Source: a virus
IMG/VR virus record: IMGVR_UViG_3300044610_000470
Coordinates: 1-37,900 of that record
DNA length: 37,900 bases
Strand: one strand, 5' to 3'
Positions 2,114 to 37,900 of the stretch are shown here, one piece after another. How positions within the stretch are numbered: the stretch's first letter is position 1; the number at the start of each line of letters is the position of its first letter. The position numbers and the translations under genes were made by a program. Below the pieces are notes generated by a model. It did no database searches. It worked only from the letters and a program-made list of their open reading frames with translations, and was not told the origin of the DNA.

Positions 2114-2160
2114 GGTAGCCCGTACGGGATTCGAACCCGTGTCACCGCCTTGAGAGGGCG
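2114..2160. repeat. attL: attL: 47-bp tRNA-Glu 3' remnant
   Basis: A 47-base identical direct repeat of 36997-37043, covering the T arm, variable loop, anticodon loop and 3' acceptor strand of tRNA-Glu. Identity stops in the anticodon stem on the phage side. On the host side this copy continues without an encoded CCA (next bases AA on the plus strand), unlike the right copy. With the integrase gene 66 bases away, this is the left attachment site. Confidence 0.93.
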
Positions 2161-2188
2161 GTATACTAACTTAGGCTTTATTTACGCT

Positions 2189-2226: not shown

Positions 2227-3207
2227 CTATTGTTTGCCAGCTTCCAAGAGGGCAAACGGGCTGATCAGTACCTCACGAACGTCTTCTACATCTTGTAGGG
2301 AGTAGGTGGCGGTCATGCGGTATGAGCTATGACCGAGTTGTTTGGAAAGCAGTTGGCCGTGTGATTCGCCACGGCGATGGCGGTTATAGTAGGTTGTAAA
2401 GTTTCTTCTGAAGTCATGCGGGCCTTGGAGTTGTTCGGCCAGGCCGGCGATGATGATCAGTTTTTTAACGGCTCGATAGATCCCGATGGGCGTTAGGCGC
2501 CGGCCGCTACGGCCAGAGGTGAAGAGCGGCCCTTTGGGTGGAATTGTGTCCAGGTAGGCGCGGATATGGCGCCCGGTTGGTTGGTCGAAGGCGACCAGGC
2601 GGCGATGAACTTCGCGCTGGCCCACTTTTTTGGCTTCAACTTGCAGTTCGCCACTGTCATCGGCGTTCATTGTCACCCACTCTACATTGATTGATGCGCA
2701 TTCGGCGCGGCGCACCCCAGTGCCGAGCAAGACGGCCAAGATGGCCCGATCCCGTGTGGGGTAGGGTGATTGGTCGGCGGCGGTGATGAGCAAGCGCAGT
2801 TGGTCGAGGGGGGTGGCGGTGCGCATGGGGGCGCTACCGGTGGGGGCGGGTACGAGTGTGCTGTAGTTATGGTTGACGTAGCCGCCACGGTAGGCCCACA
2901 GGAACATTTGGCGAAGGCGGCGTAGGCAGTCTTTGCGGGTATGATAGCCCAGCGGCTTGCCAAAGCGGCTGGGGCGGTCGCTAAGATGTTGGTTAAAGTC
3001 AAGTAGTAAATCCTCATCCAGTTGCCACGCAACGGTGGCGCCGGTTGTTTTCCACCATTCACGAAAATAGCGGATTTTTTCTGTATAGCCTTGTAGCGTT
3101 TTCTGGCTCAAGCGCCGTCGGCGATCTTTGAGCCAGAGATCGATAAGCGCGTCGAGATGCTGGGCGTCCAAAATTGGGCGCGCAGGGTCCAAGCGGATTG
3201 AATCCAT
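2227..3207 (-). CDS. int: Phage tyrosine recombinase (integrase)
   Basis: Catalyses site-specific recombination between attP and the tRNA-Glu attB. Of 326 residues, about 15-115 form the SAM-like core-binding domain and about 130-320 the catalytic domain. The expected catalytic set is visible: Arg166 (TGVRRAE), a candidate Lys194 in the beta hairpin, His264 and Arg267 (HDFRR), His293 (LGHSS) and nucleophile Tyr302. The length is normal for a phage or ICE integrase without a large arm-binding domain. RBS GGGAGG precedes the ATG by 5 bases. The gene sits beside attL and reads towards it. Its promoter region overlaps an 11-bp inverted repeat at 3272-3308 that could provide regulation. Confidence 0.95.
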   Translation of the reverse strand: MDSIRLDPARPILDAQHLDALIDLWLKDRRRRLSQKTLQGYTEKIRYFREWWKTTGATVAWQLDEDLLLDFNQHLSDRPSRFGKPLGYHTRKDCLRRLRQMFLWAYRGGYVNHNYSTLVPAPTGSAPMRTATPLDQLRLLITAADQSPYPTRDRAILAVLLGTGVRRAECASINVEWVTMNADDSGELQVEAKKVGQREVHRRLVAFDQPTGRHIRAYLDTIPPKGPLFTSGRSGRRLTPIGIYRAVKKLIIIAGLAEQLQGPHDFRRNFTTYYNRHRRGESHGQLLSKQLGHSSYRMTATYSLQDVEDVREVLISPFALLEAGKQ

Positions 3208-5692: not shown

Positions 5693-6015
5693 CACTTTCG
5701 ACGATTGGCCAGGAGATGAAAGAGCGGTTGGCGGCGGTGGAAAAGGGGCATGTGACCAAGGCGCTCTTTGGCGGGCTGATGATTGTGCTGGAGCGGCGGG
5801 GCCGGTTGTGGCGGCTGGCGCTGGGACGGACGAAGACGCCACTGAGTATTACGGAGGCGCAAGTGGTGGCGCGTGAATTCGGCTTGCCGGCGGGGATCGA
5901 GTGGCATTGGGAGATCAAGCGCAATCAGAAACAGAAGATGGTTTATCAGGTGGCTGAGTGTCGGTGGTTGGAGGATGATGAGCGTGCAAGTGAAGATGAA
6001 AGGGGTGGGGGATGA
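5689..6015 (+). CDS. Small unknown protein, early operon
   Basis: 108 residues with a compact alpha/beta look: a helix at residues 5-20, then strands (ALFGGLMIVLERRGRLWRLAL), a helix near the VVAREFGLP stretch and a final strand ending in an acidic tail. Coupled by ATGA to the preceding gene and overlapping parA by four bases. No family recognised. Confidence 0.6.
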   Translation: MTLSTIGQEMKERLAAVEKGHVTKALFGGLMIVLERRGRLWRLALGRTKTPLSITEAQVVAREFGLPAGIEWHWEIKRNQKQKMVYQVAECRWLEDDERASEDERGGG

Positions 6016-6770
6016 TGAAGACGGTGGCGGTGGCGAACCACAAAGGTGGGAGCGGGAAGACGACGACGACCTATAACCTGGGGATGATCTTCGGGGGGGT
6101 GGGGGTGCGGACGTTGGTGATTGATTTGGATACGCAGATGAATCTAACGCGGCGCTTTTACCCGGATAAGCCACGGGGGTATACGCCGGGGTTGACGGTG
6201 GCGAATGTGCTGGGTGGGGCGGCGCCGGGGGTTGACATCCGAGAGGCGATTTACCCAGTGGGGGGCGATGAGTTGTATTTGTGTCCTTCGGCATTTGATC
6301 TGGCGAATGTGGCGCTGGGGTTGTTGAATGACCCGATCCGAGGGCGGACGGCGTTGCGGCGGGCGTTGCGACCGATTGGCGACCGGTATGATTTATGTTT
6401 ATTGGACTGTCCACCGGAAGCGGGGATCATTTTAGCCAATGCGTTGGTGGCGGCGGATGCGGTGATCTGCCCGGCAGAGCCAGAGCGCGATGCTTTGGAT
6501 GGGATTCAACGGGTGGTAGAGATTGTTGATTTTATCCAGGGCGAGTATGGCGCGGAGCGGTTGACGGTGCTGGGGTCGATTGCGACGCGGGTTAATCTGC
6601 GGACAAATTTGCATCATGACGGTCTGACGAAGATGGGCCAAGAGGAGCGGGCGCCGTTGTTGGCGACAATTCCCGCCCGCAGCGGGACCGACCGGGATGA
6701 ACGGTTGGCGGCGGAATATGGACCGGTGGCAGAGGCCATTCGGCAATGGTTGGGAGGGCAGGTATGTTAG
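6012..6770 (+). CDS. parA: ParA-family partition ATPase
   Basis: A 252-residue deviant Walker ATPase that would move or space DNA cargo on the nucleoid with a ParB partner. The Walker A motif KGGSGKTT is at about residues 11-18, the A' motif is VIDLDTQMN, and the Walker B region is LCLLDCPPE. It lacks the N-terminal HTH of P1-type ParA, so it is a short (type Ib or Soj-like) ParA. Two adjacent ATGs (6012, 6015) are both possible after the GGGGG stretch. It overlaps the small gene before it and parB after it, so the four genes are translated as a unit. Confidence 0.92.
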   Translation: MMKTVAVANHKGGSGKTTTTYNLGMIFGGVGVRTLVIDLDTQMNLTRRFYPDKPRGYTPGLTVANVLGGAAPGVDIREAIYPVGGDELYLCPSAFDLANVALGLLNDPIRGRTALRRALRPIGDRYDLCLLDCPPEAGIILANALVAADAVICPAEPERDALDGIQRVVEIVDFIQGEYGAERLTVLGSIATRVNLRTNLHHDGLTKMGQEERAPLLATIPARSGTDRDERLAAEYGPVAEAIRQWLGGQVC

Positions 6771-19887: not shown

Positions 19888-20706
19888 TTACCTTTCTGTA
19901 TAAAAAATGGGTTGTAGAATGACTCTGTACTTTGGCCGGGTGATCAGATATAGACTATTGGCGCTATTCCACTGTTGGGCTAGATAGCTGCCGGACGCTG
20001 GCGATAATGACCAGTAGTCATCCTTGTTGCAGTCGATGATGTCAAAGCGGTTGCATTTGTGATTGTTGGGGCGGGTCATCACGTCCCCAAAATCGAGCGT
20101 GTGAAAGTTCCCGTCACTGTTTGGGGCGCCAAGCTGGACGGCGCCCATCGCGTGCAACATTTCATGGGTGACGACATAGGCGCCCAGGCAGTCACGGGCA
20201 ACCCAAAGCGGTGTGGACAGATTGTTAGGATTGTCGGGGCCGGGGCGCTCGTCGCCATAGAGAAGCGCCATCCCACAATATTTTAAACTCTGTTCGATGA
20301 TGATCTGCTTGCGGCGCTCTTCCGTTGGCGGCGGCTCGATGACGGCGTCATGGGTGACATACAAAATGTCTAGTTGGCAATCGGCGGTCATCTGCCAGGC
20401 CGGCAACCGATACTCACTATCACTGTCGCTGTCCAGCCAAAACATATAGTTGACTTGTTCGGCGATGGCCGTCAACCGGTCGCGAACGGCGGCCTGATCG
20501 GTTCTTTCGCCGTCAGCGGCGCGCCAGATGAATTGAAAGGTATGGTTGCCAGGCGCACAATCGAGCGATAGGCGCGAAGTGTCCACACTGACACCGTTGA
20601 TACCATTAGGAAAGAGGTAATCAACGGTGTCAGTGTGGATTGTGTGCTGGCTCAAGGGCGCGCCAGCATAGAGAAAAAGCGCGCCCAGAAAGATGATTAC
20701 GCCCAT
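19888..20706 (-). CDS. Secreted-type zinc metalloprotease in the tail operon
   Basis: 272 residues. The hydrophobic N-terminus (about 2-16) may be a signal or anchor but has no basic residues. The motif HEMLHAMG is at 181-188 (His181, Glu182, His185). His202 in GNFHTLDFGDVM is the likely third zinc ligand, and Met210 may be a Met-turn. The end (DCNKDDYWSLSPASGSYLA) is like a family of exported bacterial peptidases with DCxxDDYF-type C-termini. Cysteines at 50, 110, 144, 173, 218 and 226 could form disulfides. It overlaps the tail-tube gene by 10 bases, so it is co-translated. Role could be virion-borne surface digestion or lysogenic conversion. Confidence 0.65.
   Translation of the reverse strand: MGVIIFLGALFLYAGAPLSQHTIHTDTVDYLFPNGINGVSVDTSRLSLDCAPGNHTFQFIWRAADGERTDQAAVRDRLTAIAEQVNYMFWLDSDSDSEYRLPAWQMTADCQLDILYVTHDAVIEPPPTEERRKQIIIEQSLKYCGMALLYGDERPGPDNPNNLSTPLWVARDCLGAYVVTHEMLHAMGAVQLGAPNSDGNFHTLDFGDVMTRPNNHKCNRFDIIDCNKDDYWSLSPASGSYLAQQWNSANSLYLITRPKYRVILQPIFYTER
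20582..20639. repeat. Perfect 20-bp hairpin near the 5' end of the metalloprotease gene
   Basis: Arms 20582-20601 (TCCACACTGACACCGTTGAT) and 20620-20639 are exact complements, with an 18-base loop. It covers codons about 23-42 of the gene. There is no T-tract. It would form a very stable mRNA hairpin soon after translation starts. Confidence 0.85.
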
Positions 20707-22307: not shown

Positions 22308-23462
22308 TTAGAGTGCCGTCATGACACGGTTGCCCGTTCCCGACACGGCGACAGCCACAAAGAGGCCCTTGTCAAAAGTAACGGAGCGCCATTGGTTATC
22401 AACGGCGCTGGTGCGCGCTGTCCAGGTAATGCCATCGGGCGAGGTCATGACGCGGTTACCCGTGCCGGTGACGCCAACTACGACATAGACCCCATTGCCA
22501 AAACAGACGCTGCGCCAATCATTGTCGGCGGCGCTGGTGCGTGCGGTCCAGGTGATGCCGTCCGGCGAGGTCATGACCCGGTTGCCCGTGCCAGACATAG
22601 CGACGGCCACAAACAAGCCATTGCCAAAACAGACGCTCTGCCAGTTGTTGTCGGCGGCGCTGGTGCGCGCCGTCCAGGTGATGCCGTCGGGCGAGGTCAT
22701 GACCCGGTTGCCCGTGCCAGAGGTAGCGACGGCCACAAACAAGCCATTGCCAAAACAGACGCTCTGCCAGTTGTTGTCGGCGGCGCTGGTGCGCGCCGTC
22801 CAGGTGATGCCATCGGGCGAGGTCATGACCCGATTGCCCGTGCCGGTGATGGCAACGGTCACAAACAAGCCATTGCCAAAACAGACGCTCTGCCATTGGT
22901 TATCAATAGGACTGGTGCGCGCCGTCCAGGTGATGCCATCGGGCGAGGTCATGATGCGGTTGCCCGTGCCAGTGTTGGCGACGGCGACAAACAAGTTATT
23001 GCCAAAACAAACGCTCTGCCAGTTATTGTCGGCGGCGCTGGTGCGCGCCGTCCAGGTGGCGCCATTTGGATAAAATTGAGCGCGGACGGTCACGTCGGCG
23101 GCCAAAGCGTCGTTGATTGGCGATTTTGGCGTAAAGTTGCTAATAAATCCTTGCACAACATGGGAGTCATTGGCGCCCCACACAACGCGCCAGAGTTCAG
23201 TGCTGGCGGCAAGGGATAGATTCAACAACGTTTGGTGCGTCGCCACCCCTGGATCGTAGATGAGATCGAAGGTCAACTCGCTCATGTCATTAAAGCTACT
23301 ACGAAAATTATGGTGTTGGTTTTCGTCCGCGTCACGGGTTGTTAGATCAATGATGTCGCTAATCACGCCCGGCCCGTTGATGTCGCGCACTTGGGCAAGG
23401 GTGATAAACCCATTTGTGTTATTCCAGAGGGCCAGGGATGTATCAAGGCCACTAAATTTCAT
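22308..23462 (-). CDS. Tail-tube paralogue fused to six propeller-like repeats
   Basis: 384 residues from the ATG two bases after the preceding stop (an ATG four codons upstream overlaps that gene). Residues about 1-125 are a paralogue of the major tail tube: AQVRDINGPGVISDIIDLTTRD, LTFDLIYDPG and FTPKSPINDALAADVTV are shared. Residues about 130-384 are six copies of a 42-residue unit (TWTARTS...NxWxSVxFGNGLFVAV...GTGNRVMTSPDGI), like blades of a sialidase/BNR-type beta propeller. It probably decorates the tail tube, as C-terminal Ig domains do in other tails, and may bind host-surface or environmental glycans. Its place among connector genes is unusual. Confidence 0.75.
   Translation of the reverse strand: MKFSGLDTSLALWNNTNGFITLAQVRDINGPGVISDIIDLTTRDADENQHHNFRSSFNDMSELTFDLIYDPGVATHQTLLNLSLAASTELWRVVWGANDSHVVQGFISNFTPKSPINDALAADVTVRAQFYPNGATWTARTSAADNNWQSVCFGNNLFVAVANTGTGNRIMTSPDGITWTARTSPIDNQWQSVCFGNGLFVTVAITGTGNRVMTSPDGITWTARTSAADNNWQSVCFGNGLFVAVATSGTGNRVMTSPDGITWTARTSAADNNWQSVCFGNGLFVAVAMSGTGNRVMTSPDGITWTARTSAADNDWRSVCFGNGVYVVVGVTGTGNRVMTSPDGITWTARTSAVDNQWRSVTFDKGLFVAVAVSGTGNRVMTAL
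22320..23075. repeat. Six 126-bp tandem repeats (propeller units)
   Basis: 126-bp units run in register through the 3' two-thirds of the gene. Units 3 and 4 are nearly identical at DNA level, and the terminal units are more diverged. In-frame period of 42 codons. Suitable for copy-number change by recombination. Confidence 0.9.
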
Positions 23463-23464
23463 GT

Positions 23465-24058
23465 TTACCACCATCCTCTATCGATATGGAGTAAGGAGCG
23501 CACGGCGTCAGGCATTTGGGCAACGGTGACGCCAGGTGCGGCGACCACCTGTTCGCGGTTCTCGTAGAAATGCCCGGCGAGCAGCCGGATCGCCTGCTTG
23601 TAGCGCTCTGGGACGGCGCCGGCATTGCCATAACCGGCGACAAAGGTGATTGTGATGGCCGGGCCAGGGCGCAGGGTGGCGCTGGGCCAGGAAGCATTGT
23701 AGGCCAGTAGCAGCCGGCCCGGTTCGCTGGTCGTGTCAGCAATGTAGTCGGCGCCCGGCATGTTGCGGGTAACGCCGGCATAGTCGATATAGGTAACGCT
23801 TGTGATGCTTTGCAGTGGGGGGCGGGGCAAAGCCACGTGCGTATCAAGCGGCCATGCAAACGGCCATGTCTCCAGACCAAGCGCCAGCGCTTGCGTAACG
23901 AAGGCGCGGCGGCTTTCTAGCTCGCACATCTCGCGTGCAGCCTGAAGATAGGCGGTGATGACACTGTCTTCATCACTGCCTATCACGCGTAAGTGCGCTT
24001 TGATTTCGGCCAGGCTGATTGGTTCGGTCGCCGGCGGCGTTACAAGCTTGAGAATCAC
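23465..24058 (-). CDS. Head-tail connector (phage gp6-like)
   Basis: 197 residues. The opening KLVTPPATEPISLAEIKAHL plus the helix SVITAYLQAAREMCELESRR identifies the gp6-like connector family, which forms a ring under the portal. The C-terminal part (PERYKQAIRLLAGHFYENRE, then a short DAVRSLL helix) is also typical. ATGA overlap with the small gene upstream. Confidence 0.85.
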   Translation of the reverse strand: MILKLVTPPATEPISLAEIKAHLRVIGSDEDSVITAYLQAAREMCELESRRAFVTQALALGLETWPFAWPLDTHVALPRPPLQSITSVTYIDYAGVTRNMPGADYIADTTSEPGRLLLAYNASWPSATLRPGPAITITFVAGYGNAGAVPERYKQAIRLLAGHFYENREQVVAAPGVTVAQMPDAVRSLLHIDRGWW

Positions 24059-26248: not shown

Positions 26249-26896
26249 TTACTCCACTTCTAACAGGCGTAATCGTCGTTGCTGGAACAGGCGGCGCACC
26301 TGCGCAGCCGCGTCAGCAGTTGGTTTATGGGAATCAGGCGCCCGCCTGAATTGTTTCGGAATCGTGGGGATCACCCCATAGAGGGCGTCAATCTGCCTGC
26401 CGTCGCTGCGCTGTTGGACGCTGGTGGCAGTGTAGGCAGGGAAGGTCACATAGGAGACCTCGTACAACTTGACTTTCAGCAGGGTGCGCACGAGCTGCTC
26501 TTCGCCGTCCATGTCCCAAGTGTCTTCCAGCACGCGGAAGCCGAAGCTCATCTGATCAACATCACCCCGTTGCACGCTTTCGATCTGGTGCGCAGCGGAC
26601 AGCGGCGGCTGATTCTCAAATTGTAGCCCGGTGGCGTCTTCGGCCAGGCGCAACGTCCCACTCTTAGTGCGGCCCATCACCATGCCGGTTTGATGGTCCC
26701 ACAGAGCGCGCACATCATCACCCAAGCTGGCCGCAAACGCCCCAGGGGCGATCTTCTCGCGGAAGCCCCACATCGCGACACTCAGCGTATTGAAGACAGC
26801 GGCGTAGCCCTCAAAGGTCAATGGCTGATCTGCGGCGCGCTGTACGGTTTTTAGATGATGCTGCGCACAATAACGGCGCTCGATTTCCAGTTCCAT
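26249..26896 (-). CDS. HK97-family prohead protease
   Basis: 215 residues. LTFEGYAAVFNT opening and EKIAPGAFAASL are family hallmarks. The catalytic His is in ALWDHQTGMVMGRTKSGTLRL and the Ser in LYEVSYVTFPAY. This serine protease cuts scaffold domains during prohead maturation. AGGAGG lies 6 bases before the ATG. Confidence 0.93.
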   Translation of the reverse strand: MELEIERRYCAQHHLKTVQRAADQPLTFEGYAAVFNTLSVAMWGFREKIAPGAFAASLGDDVRALWDHQTGMVMGRTKSGTLRLAEDATGLQFENQPPLSAAHQIESVQRGDVDQMSFGFRVLEDTWDMDGEEQLVRTLLKVKLYEVSYVTFPAYTATSVQQRSDGRQIDALYGVIPTIPKQFRRAPDSHKPTADAAAQVRRLFQQRRLRLLEVE

Positions 26897-28945: not shown

Positions 28946-28964
28946 GGTGATAACCCCAAAGGCG

Positions 28965-29008
28965 ATAAAAAAAGACGCCAAACGGCATTGCTGCTCGTTT
29001 GGCGTCTT
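28965..29008 (-). terminator. Rho-independent terminator of the phage tRNA gene
   Basis: On the minus strand AAGACGCCAAACG (29008-28996) pairs with CGTTTGGCGTCTT (28984-28972) around 11 bases, followed by seven T residues in total. It lies 35 bases after the tRNA. Some read-through or a further promoter is needed for the late operon. Confidence 0.8.
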
Positions 29009-29042
29009 GCGCTCCGATATTTGATTGGGGGCTGTGCGTTAA

Positions 29043-29114
29043 TGGCGGGAGTGAGATTTGAACTCACGGCCTCCTGATTATGAGCCAGGCGAGCTACCGC
29101 TGCTCCATCCCGCT
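29043..29114 (-). tRNA. tRNA-Met(CAT), initiator-like
   Basis: 72 bases, anticodon loop CTCATAA, no encoded CCA. Initiator features: D arm GGAGCAGC-GGTAGCTC with the A11:T24 pair, T loop TTCAAAT, and a non-Watson-Crick 1:72 position. That position is A1.C72 rather than the usual C1.A72, and the anticodon stem has TGG/TCA instead of three G:C pairs. It lies inside the prophage just upstream of the portal gene. Confidence 0.85.
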
Positions 29115-29120
29115 ATGGGT

Positions 29121-29172
29121 GACGGTTATAACTTCCCCCGATGGCGTTTGAAGCGCCAAAGCTATAACCGTC
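29121..29172 (-). ncRNA. Structured leader before the phage tRNA
   Basis: Predicted transcription starts near 29172. The first bases GACGGTTATA pair with TATAACCGTC ending at 29121, enclosing a second TGGCG/CGCCA hairpin and a G-rich loop. The tRNA begins 6 bases later. It may protect or process the precursor, or be a small RNA released by tRNA maturation. Confidence 0.45.
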
Positions 29173-29256
29173 GCGATCATCATAGCATGTTTGGCCGTTG
29201 TTAGCAATACTTACGGCAGTGTTTGTTAGCGCGCCCATTTGTGCTATGATGATCGC
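29173..29256. promoter_or_regulatory. Twin divergent late promoters within a 15-bp inverted repeat
   Basis: Rightward: TTGTTA (29223-29228), 16 bp, TATGAT (29245-29250). Leftward: TTGCTA (plus 29202-29207), 17 bp, TATGAT (plus 29179-29184). Each -10 lies in the same 15-mer TGCTATGATGATCGC, forming an exact inverted repeat (29173-29187, 29242-29256). The leftward promoter drives tRNA and head-tail genes; the rightward one drives the CHAT, holin and terminase genes. Confidence 0.65.
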
Positions 29257-29332
29257 ACGGGCAGCCAACCAAACGGCTTGCCTTTGCGTTGGCTGCACTC
29301 CTATCATAAACAGCAGCAATATGGAGGCAGTA

Positions 29333-30061
29333 ATGAGCAACACCAGCCGGCGCGAATCTCTTTTGACTCTTGCAACGCTCCACGGAGACCTGGCCGCCAC
29401 CCATCGTTTGATCGCTGAAGAGTATCAGGCCCTGGCCGAGAGCGAGGGCGATACGCAGACCACGCCCGATCCGCCTGACCCTATCGATCCGATTAAGCCG
29501 CCGACGCCTGTGCGCCTGCGCTTGGGGCAGTGGGTTGATAAGATGAGGATTCGCATTTGCGGCATTCAGGAGCGGCCAGATCGCCCACAAGCAAAGAATG
29601 GTATCAAGTACTTTATCACCGATGTTTTTACAACGCGTGACGGTGCCTGGGAGCCGTCAGGGGTATTGGGCAGCGTTGACCAATGGGCGCGTGATACGTA
29701 CTTGCGCCCGTTTAACGCGCCGGATTATTTTGATGATGCTGGGGCGGCTACTCATCTTTTTGCGGCGGTCATCGGGCTAGATGGGAAGTTGATTCGCGGG
29801 CAGCAGATTATCTTTTGGTCGGATGGCCTGGGCAAGCTGGCCGATCCAACCTATCAGAAATATGTCACGCAGTACACCAAGGAAAAGAGTGGATGGTGCA
29901 ATTTGTTTATGTCGCCGTCGGCGTCCTTTGTGCCTGAGCGTGGCGAGTCGGGGCCGTGGTGCTGGTGTCCACCTGGCGCCAGTGATGTGTTGGTGGGGGG
30001 TGGGTTGCCGGCCAGGCAGCATGTTAGTACTTTTGCCGTTTGGCAGGCAGTGAGGGCGTAA
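29333..30061 (+). CDS. Unknown protein upstream of the CHAT gene
   Basis: 242 residues; GGAGG nine bases before the ATG. The N-terminal helix (about 8-42) is followed by a Pro/Asp-rich linker (about 45-62) and then a beta-rich domain of about 180 residues. Conserved-looking Trp/Cys patches are SGWCNLF, GPWCWCPPG and LPARQHVSTFAVW. It resembles no family I can name. The stop overlaps the start of the CHAT-like gene (TAATG), so the two are translated together and may form a functional pair. No membrane segment or signal peptide. Confidence 0.6.
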   Translation: MSNTSRRESLLTLATLHGDLAATHRLIAEEYQALAESEGDTQTTPDPPDPIDPIKPPTPVRLRLGQWVDKMRIRICGIQERPDRPQAKNGIKYFITDVFTTRDGAWEPSGVLGSVDQWARDTYLRPFNAPDYFDDAGAATHLFAAVIGLDGKLIRGQQIIFWSDGLGKLADPTYQKYVTQYTKEKSGWCNLFMSPSASFVPERGESGPWCWCPPGASDVLVGGGLPARQHVSTFAVWQAVRA

Positions 30062-30807
30062 TGCGGATTTTATTGATTGCGCCTGATCAACCGGACATTA
30101 ATTCAATCCCGGAGATCCGGCGGTTGAGCGAGATGCACACGACCCACGTTTTCAACGGGCCGGTGAGTTATGATGATCTGCTCGATGCGGTGCGACACAA
30201 TGAGTATGATGCGATTCATTTTGCTACTCATATCCGCGCTGATGATTACCGAAAGCTCAACTCGATGGCTCTGAGCGGACGCGACTACATCGACCTGAAT
30301 CGGGCGGTACAGTTGTGCAAGTTAGGAAAGACCAAGTTGGCGTTTTTTAATTTATGCCTGGCCGCCAGGTTTGGGGCGTACCTTGCGCAGCGGGCGGCGG
30401 TTCCTTTTGTGATCTTCACCACTGTTGAAATACAGGATGATCATGCGTGGTCTACGGCGGTATCGTTTTATGAGCGGTGTCGCCGGGTTGAGTTGTCTGG
30501 TCAACCAATGGATTATAAGGAATTGCTTGAGTCCGTGGATAGCGGAGATGGATTGTACTACTGGGCGGCGGCGACGGATTATTACGGGCATTTGCTCAAG
30601 CCATTGAAAGATACGCTCTTTGAAATCCAGCAGCAGTTACAGGCACTGGTCAGCACGGTAGATCGTCACGCGGAACTGCTGGATGCTCGTGCGCCTAGCC
30701 CGATACATAGTCGATTCTTGATTGGGCTTGCGATCTTCTGTGCTGTGCTGGTCGTGCTGAGTAGTGTGTTGGTGTTGACCCAAGCGGTCCATATCTTTAT
30801 GCAGTGA
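30061..30807 (+). CDS. CHAT-like (caspase-fold) protein with C-terminal membrane anchor
   Basis: 248 residues. The fold signs are an opening strand (MRILLIAP), AIHFATH with candidate catalytic His57, and KLAFFNLCLAARFGAYLAQR with candidate Cys99. A CHAT-typical VPFVIFTTVEIQDDHAWSTAVSFYERC block follows, where these proteins usually have a G-x-x-x-V-I-x-x-x-W segment, Asp-x-x-Ala and FY. A helix at about 182-208 and one membrane segment at 219-243 complete it. CHAT proteases are peptidases often used in programmed cell death or defence. Starts in the stop of the preceding gene and lies before a holin-like gene. Assignment is by eye and needs structural confirmation. Confidence 0.5.
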   Translation: MRILLIAPDQPDINSIPEIRRLSEMHTTHVFNGPVSYDDLLDAVRHNEYDAIHFATHIRADDYRKLNSMALSGRDYIDLNRAVQLCKLGKTKLAFFNLCLAARFGAYLAQRAAVPFVIFTTVEIQDDHAWSTAVSFYERCRRVELSGQPMDYKELLESVDSGDGLYYWAAATDYYGHLLKPLKDTLFEIQQQLQALVSTVDRHAELLDARAPSPIHSRFLIGLAIFCAVLVVLSSVLVLTQAVHIFMQ

Positions 30808-30820
30808 AAGGCTGGAATCT

Positions 30821-31153
30821 ATGTTGGAGACAGGGAACTCTCTATTGGCCACGGTGGTGGTGGCGGTGATCGTGCTGGTCTTTTTGCGGTGGTGGAAGAA
30901 GAGTAGGCAAGGTGAGCTATTAAGTTTGATCGTTGAGTTAGTCGCCGCGGCAGAGCAGGTCTATGGGGCGAAGAGCGGATCGACAAAACTGACGTGGGTG
31001 CTTGAGCAGATCAAGGTGCGCTTTCCTGGTGTCGATATCGCGTTGGCGCGCACGCTGATCGAAGCTGCTGTGCATCGCCAGGAGTCTGCCAAGCCGCAGA
31101 AATCAATACAATCTGCGCCAGTGAGTCGAGCAAACGGATACGATCATCGCTAG
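30821..31153 (+). CDS. Holin-like protein (LL-H type)
   Basis: 110 residues. One N-terminal membrane segment (about 8-26), a basic stretch (RWWKKSRQ), then helices (LSLIVELVAAAEQVYGAKSG; LTWVLEQIKVRFPGVDIALA) as in LL-H-type phage holins, which control endolysin release through the membrane. The endolysin gene is 4 kb away on the other strand. An alternative is a different small membrane protein working with the CHAT gene. Confidence 0.6.
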   Translation: MLETGNSLLATVVVAVIVLVFLRWWKKSRQGELLSLIVELVAAAEQVYGAKSGSTKLTWVLEQIKVRFPGVDIALARTLIEAAVHRQESAKPQKSIQSAPVSRANGYDHR

Positions 31154-31165
31154 GCCGTGCAGGGG

Positions 31166-31253
31166 TAGGGGGGATCAAATCTCTACAGCCCCAAGGATGT
31201 AGACCGGCGGCGTGGTCGAACGCGCGCGACCGCGAAATTGGATAGGGGGGGGT
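31166..31253. other. cos: Probable cos (packaging) region
   Basis: Non-coding stretch beginning GGGGGGATCAAATCTCTACA and, 60 bases later, ending GGATAGGGGGGGG. In between are CCGGCGGCGTGG and a CGCGCGCGACCGCG palindromic run. Many P27-type terminase phages with HNH partners show this G-run/ATCAAATCTCTACAGCC arrangement immediately before their terminase genes. The exact cut site is not determined. Confidence 0.55.
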
Positions 31254-31580
31254 ATGTCGGATAGGGGGCCTGCGGGCTTAGGCTTGGACACGGCAAATGT
31301 GAGTAGTTTCACGGCGATCAGTAAGGTAGAGGTGGCGCGGTTGTTGCCGGGTGATGTGCTGGTTGTGACCGTCCGTGAAGGGGTGTATCTTTCTCAAGCG
31401 GATGCTGAGTCGCTGCGTTCTCAGTTGCGGGCGGCGTTGCCAATCTGGGTCAAGGTGGCTATTGCGCAGGGTGTTGATTTCATGATTGTGAGGCGGGGGG
31501 ATGGCGGGGAGACCAGCAAAACCAACACGACTGAAGGAATTGACGGGCAACCCAGGGAAGCGCAGCCTGAACAAGAGTGA
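31254..31580 (+). CDS. Small phage protein before TerS
   Basis: 108 residues. The core (VARLLPGDVLVVTVREGVYL, SQADAESLRSQLRAALP) matches a short beta-alpha domain seen in many phage genomes near packaging or lysis genes, with a 'LxPGDVLVV' signature and unknown role. It starts at the end of the cos-like region after a G-run. It overlaps the TerS gene by 80 bases in another frame, so translation of TerS begins inside it. Confidence 0.6.
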   Translation: MSDRGPAGLGLDTANVSSFTAISKVEVARLLPGDVLVVTVREGVYLSQADAESLRSQLRAALPIWVKVAIAQGVDFMIVRRGDGGETSKTNTTEGIDGQPREAQPEQE

Positions 31581-31971
31581 GCCAAAGCCGCCAGCGAAGG
31601 CGCCCACCTGTCCTAAGCATATTCAGGGGGAAGGGCGCAAGGAGTGGAACCGGATAACTAAGCAGTTGATGGCGTTGGGTTTGCTGACGGAGATTGACCG
31701 GGCCGCACTGGCGGCGTACTGTCAGTGTTGGGCGCGGTGGGTGCAAGCGGAAGAGGCCATGCGCGACCCTGAGCATAAGATGGTGACATTGACCGATAGT
31801 GGATACCCGGTGGTGACGCCTTGGATTAATGTGGCAAACACTGCGATGAAGCAGATGCTGCGCTACTTGACTGAATTTGGGATGACGCCGGCGTCACGAA
31901 GCAAGGTTACGGCAGCGAGCGAGGAAGAAGATGACCCATACGAGGAATTTATAAAGAGGAAAAGCGCTTGA
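31501..31971 (+). CDS. Terminase small subunit (P27 family)
   Basis: 156 residues: MAGRPAKPTRLKELTGNPGK opening, then PPAKAPTCPKHIQGEGRKEW, LLTEIDRAALAAYCQCWARW and a C-terminal ASRSKVTAASEEEDDPYEEF tail, the standard P27 layout. Recognises the packaging site and delivers DNA to TerL. AGGCGGGGGG acts as RBS. Its stop overlaps the TerL start. Confidence 0.92.
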   Translation: MAGRPAKPTRLKELTGNPGKRSLNKSEPKPPAKAPTCPKHIQGEGRKEWNRITKQLMALGLLTEIDRAALAAYCQCWARWVQAEEAMRDPEHKMVTLTDSGYPVVTPWINVANTAMKQMLRYLTEFGMTPASRSKVTAASEEEDDPYEEFIKRKSA

Positions 31972-33695
31972 TGGGTGAGTATCTCTATCAGCAGTATATT
32001 GATGATGTGTTATCCGGGCGGCAGGTGGTTTGTAAGTGGGTGCGGCTGGCGGTGGAGCGGCATCGAGACGACTTGGTGACGGGGGGCGGGCGCGGGTTGC
32101 GGTTTAGTGATGATGCTGCGCAGCATGTGATCGACTTCTTCGGATTCCTGCGGCATAGCAAGGGCGAGTGGGCGGGGCGGGTGGTGACGCTGGAGCCTTG
32201 GCAACAGTTTGTATTGGCGATGGCGTTTGGGTGGCAGCGGTATAACGATGAGCGTGAGCAGTGGCTTCGGCGCTTTCGGCAGGTGTTTTTGGAGGTGGCG
32301 CGCAAGAATGGGAAATCGACGTTGGCGGCTGGGGTGGCGCTGTATCTTTTGGATGCGGATGGGGAAGCTGGCGCTGAAGTTTATTGCGCGGCGACAAAAA
32401 AGGATCAGGCGCGGATCGCCTGGTCGGAGGCGAAACGGATGGTGCAATCGTCGGCGTTTCTGCGTCGGCGGATTCGGTCGGTGCGGGATAACCTGCATAT
32501 TTTGAATACGGCTTCTAAGCTTGAGCCGCTTGGCCGTGACACGGATAGCATGGACGGGTTGAACGTGCATGGGGGCATTGTTGATGAGCTTCATGCGCAC
32601 AAGAACCGGGAAACCTGGGATCTGCTGGATACGGCGACCGGCAGCCGGCGCCAGTCGCTGCTGTTGGGTATCACGACGGCGGGGGTGGATAAGCATTCGC
32701 TGTGTTGGGACTTGCACCAGTATACCGAGAAGGTGGTGGAAGGGATGGTGCAGGATGACACCTTCTTCGGGGTGATCTATACGCTTGATCAAGAGAAGGT
32801 GGATGAGGCCGGGGTTGTCGTCGAGAAGGGGGATGATTGGGAGGACGAGGCGGTTTGGGTGAAGGCTAATCCCAATCTCTATGTCTCCAAGCATCTGGAT
32901 GATATGCGACGAAAGGCGCGGACGGCCAAAGAGATGCCCACGGCGCAAAATTCTTTTCTTCAGCGCGAACTGAATACATGGACGCAAGCTACTGTGCGCT
33001 GGGTGAATGCGGCCAAGTGGTTGGCGTGTGGGGCGGCGGTGAATGAGGATGGGTTGCGCGGGCGCATGTGCTTTGGTGGGCTGGATTTGTCTAGCACGAG
33101 TGATATTACGGCGTTTGTGCTGGTCTTTCCGCCGCAGCAGGCGACTGATCCGTATTCGGTGATTTGTCGCTTTTGGGTGCCTGAAGAGACGATGCGGGAA
33201 CGAAGCAAGCGGGATCGGGTGCTGTATAGTACATGGGTGCGTCAGGGTTATATTATGGCGACGCCTGGATATGTGATCGATTATGAATATATTTTGGCAG
33301 AGATCGAGGAGTTAGGGCAGCGATACGATATTCGGCAGGTTGCCTTTGACCGCTGGGGCGCTGCGCAGATTCAGACCAAGCTGTTAGATATGGGGGGCGA
33401 AGAGTTCCTGGTGCAGTTTGGACAAGGGTTTGCGAGTATGAGCGCGCCGACGAAAGAGTTGGAGCGGCTGCTTGGCAATGGGCGATTGGCGCATGGGGGC
33501 AACCCGGTTTTGACGTGGATGGCCGGGAATGCGGTGGCGAGCAAGGATGCAGCGGACAATATCAAATTGGATAAGGCGAAATCGACAGAGAAGATCGACG
33601 GGATGATTGCGTTGGTGATGGCGTTAGATCGGGCGACCAGGGGAGAGCCGGACGATTCGAGTGTTTATGATGAGAGTGATATTAAGGTTTTGTAG
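31971..33695 (+). CDS. Terminase large subunit
   Basis: 574 residues from the ATG overlapping the TerS stop. ATPase domain: adenine-binding LEPWQQFVLAMAFGW near 74-88, Walker A RKNGKST (111-117) and Walker B with catalytic Glu in GGIVDELHAH (about 200-209). Nuclease domain begins near 368 with GLDLSSTSD (first metal Asp), with further acidic sites at AFDRWGAAQ and in the final DAADNIKLDKAKST/KIDGMIALVMALD region. This is an HK97-type Terminase_1 protein that packages and cuts phage DNA. Confidence 0.95.
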   Translation: MGEYLYQQYIDDVLSGRQVVCKWVRLAVERHRDDLVTGGGRGLRFSDDAAQHVIDFFGFLRHSKGEWAGRVVTLEPWQQFVLAMAFGWQRYNDEREQWLRRFRQVFLEVARKNGKSTLAAGVALYLLDADGEAGAEVYCAATKKDQARIAWSEAKRMVQSSAFLRRRIRSVRDNLHILNTASKLEPLGRDTDSMDGLNVHGGIVDELHAHKNRETWDLLDTATGSRRQSLLLGITTAGVDKHSLCWDLHQYTEKVVEGMVQDDTFFGVIYTLDQEKVDEAGVVVEKGDDWEDEAVWVKANPNLYVSKHLDDMRRKARTAKEMPTAQNSFLQRELNTWTQATVRWVNAAKWLACGAAVNEDGLRGRMCFGGLDLSSTSDITAFVLVFPPQQATDPYSVICRFWVPEETMRERSKRDRVLYSTWVRQGYIMATPGYVIDYEYILAEIEELGQRYDIRQVAFDRWGAAQIQTKLLDMGGEEFLVQFGQGFASMSAPTKELERLLGNGRLAHGGNPVLTWMAGNAVASKDAADNIKLDKAKSTEKIDGMIALVMALDRATRGEPDDSSVYDESDIKVL

Positions 33696-33717
33696 AGAGA
33701 TAGGAGGGTTGGGATTC

Positions 33718-33783
33718 ATGAAGATCAGCGGGGTGACTGTCCATGTGGACAGTGAGAGGGGGCAGGAGAATGAAGAGGCTTGA
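33718..33783 (+). CDS. 21-residue micro-ORF made largely of the palindrome
   Basis: ATG at 33718 with AGGAGGG ten bases upstream opens 21 codons, residues 6-12 being VTVHVDS, encoded by palindrome copy 4. It ends 14 bases inside the next gene. The RBS is good, but the peptide may only couple translation to the membrane gene that follows. Confidence 0.35.
   Translation: MKISGVTVHVDSERGQENEEA
33736..33753. repeat. Dispersed 18-bp palindrome, copy 4
   Basis: ACTGTCCATGTGGACAGT, identical to copy 1 (8483-8500), in direct orientation, with identical GTG/GAG flanks on each side. Located just downstream of TerL. Confidence 0.75.
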
Positions 33784-33958
33784 TTGGGAAGATGGGTTGG
33801 TGCTGGTGGGGGCGCTGTTGGTGCTGGTGGCAATCTACTGGATGTATGGGGCGGCAGGGGTGGTAGGAACGGTGGGTCTGCTGCTGTTGACCGCAGGGGT
33901 AGGGGTGGCAATATGGCGACAGGAACAGGGCAAGCGCAACAACAACAGCGGGAAGTAG
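33770..33958 (+). CDS. Small two-segment membrane protein
   Basis: 62 residues from the ATG at 33770 (an ATG nine codons upstream lies in the palindrome and lacks an RBS). Hydrophobic segments at about 11-28 and 29-49 with charged ends (MKRLDWEDG, WRQEQGKRNNN). Second possible holin or antiholin of the phage by size and topology, but no family is recognised. Confidence 0.5.
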   Translation: MKRLDWEDGLVLVGALLVLVAIYWMYGAAGVVGTVGLLLLTAGVGVAIWRQEQGKRNNNSGK

Positions 33959-34178: not shown

Positions 34179-34265
34179 GGCCGGGCGAGGGGGACATCGC
34201 ATTGAACACCTCACCCGGCCGGTTGCCTTAGACGCCAGTACATTGCCCGTGTACTGGCGTCTTTT
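34179..34265 (+). terminator. Two successive hairpins ending the rightward operon
   Basis: First: GGCCGGGCGAGG (34179-34190) with CCTCACCCGGCC (34209-34220), one mismatch. Second: GACGCCAGTACA (34231-34242) with TGTACTGGCGTC (34250-34261), perfect 12 bp, then TTTT. The second is a rho-independent terminator; the converging minus-strand genes end just to the right. Confidence 0.85.
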
Positions 34266-34275
34266 GCTTATTGTA

Positions 34276-34635
34276 TCATACTTTTATTGTAAGAGTAGAC
34301 ATAGTTTTCTTGGAGTGGCATGAGTGGCAGAGGGATTGAAGGTTGGCGGGGTGGTCGGTGCCGCCTTCGCGCTTGGGTATGATGTGATCGACATCGATGG
34401 CGGCGGTGGTGATGCCGGCGGCAAGGCAGTGGACACAGAGGGGATGGTTGCGGAGGTGCATTTGGCGGATAGTGCGCCAGCGGCGGTCGTATCCGCGCTT
34501 GGCGGCAGTGCCACGGGCGGCATCGTAGGCGGCTTGCGAGGGTCGGGCGGTGCCACAGGCGGAGCATTGGCCGTTGCGGACAAGGCCAGGGCAGCCGGGT
34601 GTGCGCCGGCAGGGTGTAGCGGGTTTGGCGGGCAT
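34276..34635 (-). CDS. HNH endonuclease (packaging-associated)
   Basis: 119 residues from ATG 34635; the open frame upstream is a shadow of other genes. N-terminal zinc ligands C...C-x-x-C (around CPGLVRNGQCSACG), a linker (AAKRGYDRRWRTIRQMHLRN), then the HNH core CVHCLAAG...DVDHIIPKREGG...NLQSLCHSCHSKKT. HNH proteins of this size are packaging partners of cos-type terminases in HK97-like phages. One base separates it from the small gene before it. Confidence 0.88.
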   Translation of the reverse strand: MPAKPATPCRRTPGCPGLVRNGQCSACGTARPSQAAYDAARGTAAKRGYDRRWRTIRQMHLRNHPLCVHCLAAGITTAAIDVDHIIPKREGGTDHPANLQSLCHSCHSKKTMSTLTIKV

Positions 34636-34636
34636 C

Positions 34637-34870
34637 TTAGGCGCGGCGGTGGCGGGCCTGGCGCAACCGTTGGAAGCGGGGGGGCGGTTGGTGGCGACGG
34701 CTGCGGATGGTGGAATAGAGCAGAGATTTTTGATATTGACCCAGGTTGAGACCGCTGGGGGCATAGATGACGCTTTGATCATCGGCATTGAATTGCCAGC
34801 CCACAAAGCGGCCTTGGGGGTCGGTGAGTTCGTAGATGGTGGCGGTGTGAAACTCTTCTTCCTGGCTCAT
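34637..34870 (-). CDS. 77-residue unknown protein behind the endolysin
   Basis: ATGA overlap with the endolysin stop. The first 50 residues look globular (EFHTATIYELTDPQGRFVGW, FNADDQSVIYAPSGL), and the last 25 are strongly basic with many Arg and His. No family recognised. Coupling on both sides supports a real gene. Confidence 0.55.
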   Translation of the reverse strand: MSQEEEFHTATIYELTDPQGRFVGWQFNADDQSVIYAPSGLNLGQYQKSLLYSTIRSRRHQPPPRFQRLRQARHRRA

Positions 34871-35793: not shown

Positions 35794-35908
35794 CAAAAAG
35801 CGAGCCGGGATTGGTGGCGGCTCGCTCTTTGCGGTCGGCGCTTATCTCGACCTGGGTTCGGTTTGTCAGCAACCAAAGGAGTGGCACGGGGAAATGGTGG
35901 GCGTGCCT
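35794..35908 (-). ncRNA. Candidate small RNA b
   Basis: Promoter TTGCAA (plus 35937-35942), 16 bp, TATCCT (35915-35920). Transcript of about 115 bases ends at a 9-bp hairpin (35799-35807/35818-35826) followed by a T run. It has no convincing ORF and contains CTCCTTTGG (35881-35873), fully complementary to the endolysin RBS region (9 bp). Prediction only. Confidence 0.45.
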
Positions 35909-35949
35909 GGATCTAGGATAGCACAGGTGGGCCGGATTGCAAAGAGGGA

Positions 35950-36028
35950 AAATGAGAAGATCCGCCTGTCACGGCGGATCTTCTCGACTTCGACTGGTTT
36001 AGGAGAAAGTCATGCGAATGTTGGACCC
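35950..36028 (-). ncRNA. Candidate small RNA a
   Basis: Promoter TTGCAC (plus 36057-36062), 16 bp, TACAAT (36035-36040). The transcript of about 78 bases ends at a perfect 13-bp hairpin (35954-35966/35973-35985) followed by ATTTT. It carries a pyrimidine-rich TTTCTCCT anti-SD-like stretch and no ORF longer than four codons. Confidence 0.45.
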
Positions 36029-36067
36029 GCTTTGATTGTAGCATTGGTTGGGCGCGGTGCAAAGGGG

Positions 36068-36451
36068 TCAGGGGAGGGATTCGCAGGCTTCGCCGTCGTT
36101 GTTGTTATCGAGTTTGTGGATGTCGCCAAAGCCAAGGGCGGCGCAGTAGTTATAGACGGTTTGGGCGGCGGCTTGGGTGTTGAAGTTAGAGCAGTTATAG
36201 GCGTCACGATCACAGATGTAGAGTAGTTGCATGGTGGCGGTGGCGGTTGGGGTCAGGGTTGGCGTGGGGGTGGCGGTGTTGACGGGTTGGGTGGTGGCTG
36301 TTGCCGTGGGCGTGGGGGTGGCGGTCGGCGGGTCCTGCCGGATGACGAGGGGCAGATAAAGACCGGGCGGGATGGTTTGACCGGCGCCGGGCTGGGTGAG
36401 GGCCAAGGCGCTCAACGAAAGAAACAGACCAATAGCGAGTAGGTAGCGCAT
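36068..36451 (-). CDS. Secreted Excalibur-type protein
   Basis: 127 residues: signal peptide (about 1-22), a Thr/Pro-rich linker (about 43-72) and a C-terminal Excalibur-like domain (about 78-127) with YNCSNFNTQAAAQ and the calcium-type motif DNNNDGEACE. Excalibur domains are found in exported cell-surface and nuclease proteins. It is a stand-alone gene near attR, so a lysogenic-conversion factor is likely. The linker style matches the host secreted protein at 666-1895, which suggests a host origin. Confidence 0.7.
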   Translation of the reverse strand: MRYLLAIGLFLSLSALALTQPGAGQTIPPGLYLPLVIRQDPPTATPTPTATATTQPVNTATPTPTLTPTATATMQLLYICDRDAYNCSNFNTQAAAQTVYNYCAALGFGDIHKLDNNNDGEACESLP

Positions 36452-36995: not shown

Positions 36996-37071
36996 TGGTA
37001 GCCCGTACGGGATTCGAACCCGTGTCACCGCCTTGAGAGGGCGATATCCTAGGCCGCTAGACGAACGAGCC
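36996..37071 (-). tRNA. tRNA-Glu(CTC)
   Basis: 76 bases including CCA. Anticodon loop CTCTCAA (anticodon CTC), T loop TTCGAAT, acceptor 7 bp ending with a G1.T72 wobble pair. The 3' part is phage-supplied. The gene is expressed from a consensus promoter on the host side. Confidence 0.95.
36997..37043. repeat. attR: attR: 47-bp repeat within the intact tRNA-Glu
   Basis: Identical to 2114-2160. Here the repeat joins the host tRNA 5' half and restores the whole gene. Flank on the phage side adds TGG, giving an encoded CCA end. Confidence 0.93.
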
Positions 37072-37118
37072 ACGAACAACACTAGTTGGATGCAGGTGCG
37101 AACCGCTAGGATTGGTTG

Positions 37119-37147
37119 ATTATACTGCCTACCGCCGCTGCTGTCAA
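37119..37147 (-). promoter_or_regulatory. tRNA-Glu promoter
   Basis: Exact consensus on the minus strand: TTGACA (plus 37142-37147), 17 bp, TATAAT (37119-37124), about 40 bases before the tRNA 5' end. Confidence 0.85.
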
Positions 37148-37220
37148 ATTTAGTAGAGCAGCGCGAAAATGGGGCGCACATGGCTGGCTTGTCATGGGTA
37201 GGAAATAGACCAACCGTGGG

Positions 37221-37248
37221 TTGACGTAATCTAATTTAATGGTAGAAT
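37221..37248 (+). promoter_or_regulatory. Promoter of the ThuA-like gene
   Basis: TTGACG (37221-37226), 16 bp, TAGAAT (37243-37248). Leader of about 110 bases to the ATG, with no other gene in it. The remaining 37072-37366 region shows nothing else clear. Confidence 0.6.
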
Positions 37249-37366
37249 GACTACAGCGTCTGCTTGATCTCATCTCTGAACGACTACATCTTCGCCCTGT
37301 GCCGATCCATAACCGGCTCGGTGCAAGCCATGATCGTCGTTATCCACGCAGTGAAAGGAACGATCC

Positions 37367-37900
37367 ATGAAGAAAGCCTTGATTGTTTGGGGTGGCTGGG
37401 ACGGCCATGAACCCAAACTTTGCACCGATATATTCGCGCCCATGTTGCGCGAACGCAATTATGATGTCACCATCTCCGATACGCTCGATATTTATCTGAA
37501 CACCGAGTTTATGCTGGCACTCGACCTGATCGTGCCGATCTGGACGATGGGCACGATTACCCGTGAACAGGAAAAAGGCTTGCTCGACGCCATTGCCGGC
37601 GGCGTGGGCGTGGCTGGCTGGCATGGCGGCATGGGTGACGCCTTCCGCAACAACACCACCTACCAGTGGATGGTGGGCGGACAATGGGTGGCCCATCCCG
37701 GTAATATCATCGATTACGAAGTCAATATTATCGACCACAATGATCCCATCACCGCTGGCCTCAACGACTTCAAGATGCACTCGGAACAATATTACATGCA
37801 CGTTGACCCATCGAACCAGGTCTTGGCCACCACCACCTTTACGGGTGAACACGCGTCATGGGTCAACGGGGCCGTCATGCCGGTGGTCTGGAAACGTATG
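37367..37900 (+). CDS. ThuA-like protein, partial (host)
   Basis: Open from ATG 37367 (GAAAGG upstream) to the window edge, 178 codons without a stop. [15 protein letters not shown] start, then [40 protein letters not shown] and [12 protein letters not shown], and [20 protein letters not shown] show the ThuA (trehalose-utilisation, GATase-like) family, of sugar-related but poorly defined function. The long minus-strand frame over the same bases is its shadow. Confidence 0.88.

Follow-up and report, generated by a model that had tools for sequence, protein, structure and literature searches.

We found that the gene starting at position 30061 of the window (the whole 37,900-nt stretch of viral DNA analyzed here) very probably encodes a CHAT-type cysteine peptidase, whose catalysis is predicted from conserved residues and a structural model. 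The catalytic domain is of a known kind (CHAT), and the assignment stands well above chance because of the relatives recovered for the protein and its predicted structure. The original prediction had listed CHAT hallmarks in this product, and they were present as described: His57 lies in HFATH and Cys99 in NLC, together with VPFVIFTT and DDHAW...FYE blocks. The Gly that usually follows the catalytic His is absent.

A family of small predicted phage proteases

Queried alone, the window protease matched the Pfam CHAT family PF12770 weakly (E 0.036, 13.9 bits, below the cut-off of 24 bits), gave no match in a sequence search of the PDB, and recovered no relatives in single-sequence scans of viral and genome contigs, phages, and plasmids. 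Relatives were reached through a partial copy in G006 (IMGVR 3300044998_000514), which was found among records whose terminase or portal genes are related to those of the window; a two-row alignment of the N-termini then led to two full-length relatives, L123 (IMGVR 3300021970_000001, 222 aa) and L124 (IMGVR 3300031227_005660, 265 aa). Over nearly the whole catalytic region, the window protease shares 34% identity with L123 (E 1e-34) and 36% with L124 (E 4e-39), and L123 itself matches PF12770 at E 4e-11 with 43.3 bits, above the cut-off.

H57 and C99, whose conservation among homologs the original prediction had set as a test, are kept in both L123 and L124 and are thus invariant in all three full-length phage proteins, where they align with the His and Cys of bacterial CHAT proteins. 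Ten columns, including H57, N97, C99, D126, A129, F136, and Y137, are invariant across the three phage proteins and three bacterial CHAT proteins (from Nostoc, Calothrix, and a Hymenobacter plasmid). Profile-profile comparison (hhalign) of the phage family with bacterial CHAT domains gave a probability of 97.2%, and in a PDB search with the family profile the best sequence match was 8tl0 (E 0.018; His and Cys each aligned with their counterparts), which is SAVED-CHAT (PMC11417357). The L123 match to PF12770, the identity between the window protease and L123, the invariant columns, and the hhalign result led us to reject a chance CHAT-like match; a pseudo-protease was also rejected, as H57 and C99 are kept while neighboring residues vary.

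An AlphaFold model of the protease based on a four-row alignment (pLDDT 75.7, pTM 0.67) placed H57 directly behind core strand 51-55 and C99 directly behind the next one, 93-97, as in caspases, with a long helix (172-208) running into the C-terminal helix. In a Foldseek comparison of this model with the PDB, caspase-6 (E 1.1e-3) and a C11 protease came out best, followed by TPR-CHAT at ranks 6 and 14, separase at rank 10, and procaspase-3 at rank 42; these matches were moderate (E only about 1e-3) and interspersed with receiver-type alpha/beta folds. Structure prediction and comparison thus recovered the anticipated caspase-like fold.

The single C-terminal membrane segment noted earlier was also confirmed: the protease has one strong hydrophobic segment at about residues 220-240 (mean Kyte-Doolittle 2.94), and a strongly hydrophobic C-terminal stretch occurs in four of four copies, that is, in the three full-length proteins and in the tail left in G006. 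Basic residues precede the hydrophobic segment in each copy. According to the positive-inside rule, a basic flank marks the cytoplasmic side, which would place the protease domain there, and the protein is probably tail-anchored with a cytoplasmic catalytic domain.

With the CHAT family PF12770, the phage proteins share the predicted caspase fold, the His, the NxC Cys, and the D..A and FY motifs; however, they are phage-encoded and very small (222-265 aa), lack TPR, SAVED, or any other sensor domain as well as the GHG glycine, and carry a helical stalk and a C-terminal anchor. Type III-E TPR-CHAT (Csx29, Craspase) has the same class of catalytic domain and stands at Foldseek ranks 6 and 14, whereas the 248-aa window protease has neither an N-terminal extension nor a TPR region, is membrane-anchored, and has holin and terminase genes rather than Cas7-11 nearby. 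SAVED-CHAT (8tl0) resembles the family in the aligned His and Cys, but the phage protease has no SAVED ligand-binding domain and the window has no CRISPR locus. The transmembrane anti-sigma factor DdvA (PDB 8rot), a membrane protein by its title, ranked 24th in Foldseek (E 0.011), although its chain is much larger and the fold match is weak. Among predicted viral structures (BFVD), the top fold matches of the protease were the unnamed protein A0A1P8DJ94 (264 aa, E 1.4e-8), one from Myoviridae sp. ctWaE18, and caspase/clostripain-like proteins of giant viruses; these matches have 9-13% identity to the protease, and the hosts of giant viruses are eukaryotes.

Prophage context and distribution of the gene

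The features of the window are listed in Table 1. The two 55-nt tRNA-Glu repeats are 96% identical, and together with the adjoining integrase they identify the window as an integrated prophage of a temperate phage; positions of about 1-2113 and 37052-37900, outside the repeats, are accordingly host DNA. The phage origin of the protease gene was likewise supported. Its location just before a holin-like gene also held: a Holin_LLH gene comes next, followed by the genes for both terminase subunits. A scan with the window holin found no relatives.

Table 1. Features of the window discussed in the text
Feature	Position	Strand	Remarks
Attachment-site copy, 55 nt	2114..2168	.	Repeat; 3' part of tRNA-Glu
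Tyrosine integrase	2227..3207	-	PF00589 E 9.2e-16; adjoins left attachment-site copy
Exact 15-bp inverted repeat	29173..29256	.	TGCTATGATGATCGC; arms 29173-29187 and 29242-29256
Promoter-like site	29223..29250	+	TTGTTA-16-TATGAT, extended -10; consensus match only; would drive the protease operon
Gene of unknown fold, orphan	29333..30061	+	242 aa; closely preceded by a GGAGG-type ribosome-binding site
Predicted CHAT-type caspase-like protease gene	30061..30807	+	248 aa from ATG; adjacent to the gene above (proposed partner)
Layout of the protease			Catalytic domain about residues 1-171; helical stalk 172-208; C-terminal membrane segment about 220-240
Holin_LLH-type holin	30821..31153	+	PF09682 E 2.4e-7; phrog_6918 E 9.4e-8; directly 3' of the protease gene
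Small gene, same operon	31254..31580	+	No Pfam or PHROG family match
Terminase small subunit (TerS)	31501..31971	+	PF05119 E 1.8e-27
Terminase large subunit (TerL)	31968..33695	+	PF03354 and PF20441
Likely operon terminator	34229..34262	+	Strong hairpin and T run; z -5.0
Second attachment-site copy	36997..37051	.	Within intact tRNA-Glu gene 36996-37071

The backbones carrying the full-length relatives are unlike that of the window, as their TerL and capsid types differ: the window has a PF03354 TerL and a PF05065 capsid, whereas the L124 phage has a Terminase_6-type TerL and the L123 phage a DUF6260-type capsid gene. The neighborhoods also vary. In L123 the protease gene follows the capsid gene, and no recognized lysis gene was found in its neighborhood; in L124 its neighbors are a cell-wall hydrolase gene (PF07486) and small ORFs that putatively encode membrane proteins, and the terminase gene comes shortly after. 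In a set of about 80 records whose TerL or portal genes have common ancestry with those of the window, a trace of the protease was found only in G006, a rarity that is indicative only, since many of these records are fragmentary and the scans depend on short exact patterns. The G006 copy is decayed, having lost its Cys-bearing part, with the tail out of frame. No CHAT relative was found in 99 genomes around a Paenibacillus, a result of little weight. The G+C content of the protease gene is 0.51, compared with 0.55-0.61 in the other genes sampled. In lambdoid phages, the vicinity of lysis and packaging genes is a usual place for mobile cargo genes. Given its sporadic occurrence, the unrelated backbones, its lower G+C, and its decay in G006, the protease gene looks like mobile accessory cargo placed next to lysis and packaging genes.

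Adjoining the decayed gene on the G006 contig, directly before a tRNA-Met gene, is a small CRISPR-like array (35860-36188; L117:2382-2710). Its five repeats of 37-38 nt are separated by spacers of 34-36 nt, of which two are identical; no target of the spacers was found among the loci compared.

Possible roles of the protease

The most likely role, which we put forward tentatively and at slightly less than an even chance, is superinfection exclusion or abortive infection in the lysogen, carried out by a protease tethered to the membrane. We favor protection of the lysogen in view of the accessory nature of the gene and of the part that known CHAT proteases play in defense: one is listed in the phage-defense system Borvo (PMC10952713), and type III-E CRISPR phage defense uses another, Csx29, which cuts the single substrate Csx30 (PMC10028731). 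The C-terminal helix would tether the protease to the inner membrane and leave its catalytic domain on the cytoplasmic side; the enzyme would be catalytically active, and its copies could cluster at the membrane through the helical stalk (172-208). A trigger at the membrane, for instance injection or a membrane disturbance caused by a second phage, might then switch it on. By limited cleavage of one or a few host or phage proteins close to the membrane, it would stop the intruding phage or the cell. Nevertheless, in a late-type holin-terminase operon strong expression may be confined to the lytic phase, which suits lysogen protection less. Beyond the CHAT protease in common, the window protease has no PADLOC match to Borvo; PADLOC models gave it chance-level matches only (0.017 and 0.056), to unrelated models.

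The same operon invites an explanation based on lysis, in which the protease, produced late, cleaves either the holin or an envelope protein of the host at the membrane, so that its action sets the time of burst. The position of the gene directly upstream of the Holin_LLH gene in one operon, the cell-wall hydrolase and small putative membrane ORFs beside the L124 relative, and the membrane anchor in every intact copy all fit such timing or promotion of lysis. We nonetheless regard it as unlikely, as almost all related phages lack the protease and presumably still lyse their hosts, the L123 gene follows a capsid gene with no recognized lysis gene found adjacent, and the G006 copy has decayed. 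Late or infection-time expression and a membrane location would also agree with host takeover or counter-defense, i.e. cleavage of a host defense or regulatory protein during infection, for which the single-substrate specificity of CHAT proteases, such as that of Csx29 for Csx30 (PMC10028731), would be suitable; the late gene position comes late for counter-defense, and this role seems quite improbable to us. Processing of a structural protein during virion maturation is hardly credible: the gene does lie inside the structural and packaging region, and in L123 it directly follows the capsid gene, but another gene (26249-26896) occupies the prohead-protease position before the capsid gene, judging by gene order only, capsid processing would have no use for a membrane anchor, and the distribution of the protease is sporadic.

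The original prediction had further coupled the protease to the upstream gene as a dedicated pair. The overlap that it reported is real, in that the stop of the upstream gene and the ATG of the protease gene share one base (TAATG, with the A of ATG within TAA), and the two genes are likely to be co-expressed. The overlap and the tight co-transcription speak for a two-gene system, with the upstream product as sensor, inhibitor, or substrate of the protease. Overlapping starts are, however, common in phage operons, and in L124 another small ORF is tightly packed against the protease gene, its stop overlapping the TTG start. The upstream product has no detectable relative in any collection searched, a motif search of all loci for its C-terminal pattern returned chance matches only, and a gene of this type is absent beside the protease copies of L123, L124, and G006. 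The claim of a dedicated pair was therefore not upheld, and we consider a two-gene system very unlikely. A single-sequence model of the upstream product was unusable (pLDDT 35.5).

Most of what is known of caspase-like CHAT proteases comes from bacterial defense. A membrane-anchored CHAT protein with a conserved dyad in unrelated phages suggests viral use of limited proteolysis, which would guard the host against rival phages or control host death. We found no description of the minimal layout of stalk and tail anchor in unrelated phages in a limited open-access literature, which is weak evidence. It is conceivable but somewhat doubtful that these proteins form a family as yet undescribed, in which minimal CHAT proteases with a tail anchor, carried by unrelated temperate phages, act as one-gene suicide or exclusion devices that are triggered at the membrane and have no separate sensor; if this is true, viruses would have their own equivalent of the caspase-like immunity of bacteria. 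Because it consists of one 248-aa gene with two predicted catalytic residues, the protease lends itself unusually well to testing.

Transcription signals and other features of the window

Each arm of the TGCTATGATGATCGC inverted repeat contains the -10 element of one of two divergent promoter-like sites, one being that listed in Table 1 and the other facing tRNA-Met and the portal gene. Common control of the protease and portal operons is thus possible, with a terminator-like hairpin intervening. This hairpin, which is very strong, comes after tRNA-Met on the minus strand (28960-29115) and immediately precedes the portal gene. The block from the upstream gene to TerL (window ~29000-33800) is inverted relative to the HNH gene (34276-34806, -) and the portal gene (-), and HNH, TerS, TerL, and portal genes are collinear in G006. 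Inverted repeats flanking this inverted packaging block were sought, and none was found. A contig 98-99% identical to the window (L090) stops at 29134, right behind tRNA-Met.

Elsewhere in the window, a ParA gene (6012-6770) is followed by a large ParB-like gene, the latter recognized by sequence and position only with no Pfam match. A near-perfect 22-bp palindrome of the TCACTGTCCACATGGACAGTGA type occurs four times (8480, 12832, 24151, and 33733); these palindromes may be partition or operator sites. The tail region encodes a predicted secreted-type protein (19888-20706, -) in which we read a zinc-protease motif, HEMLHAMGAVQ, and a protein (22308-23474, -) with five 126-bp tandem repeats (WTARTS...NGLFVAV units).
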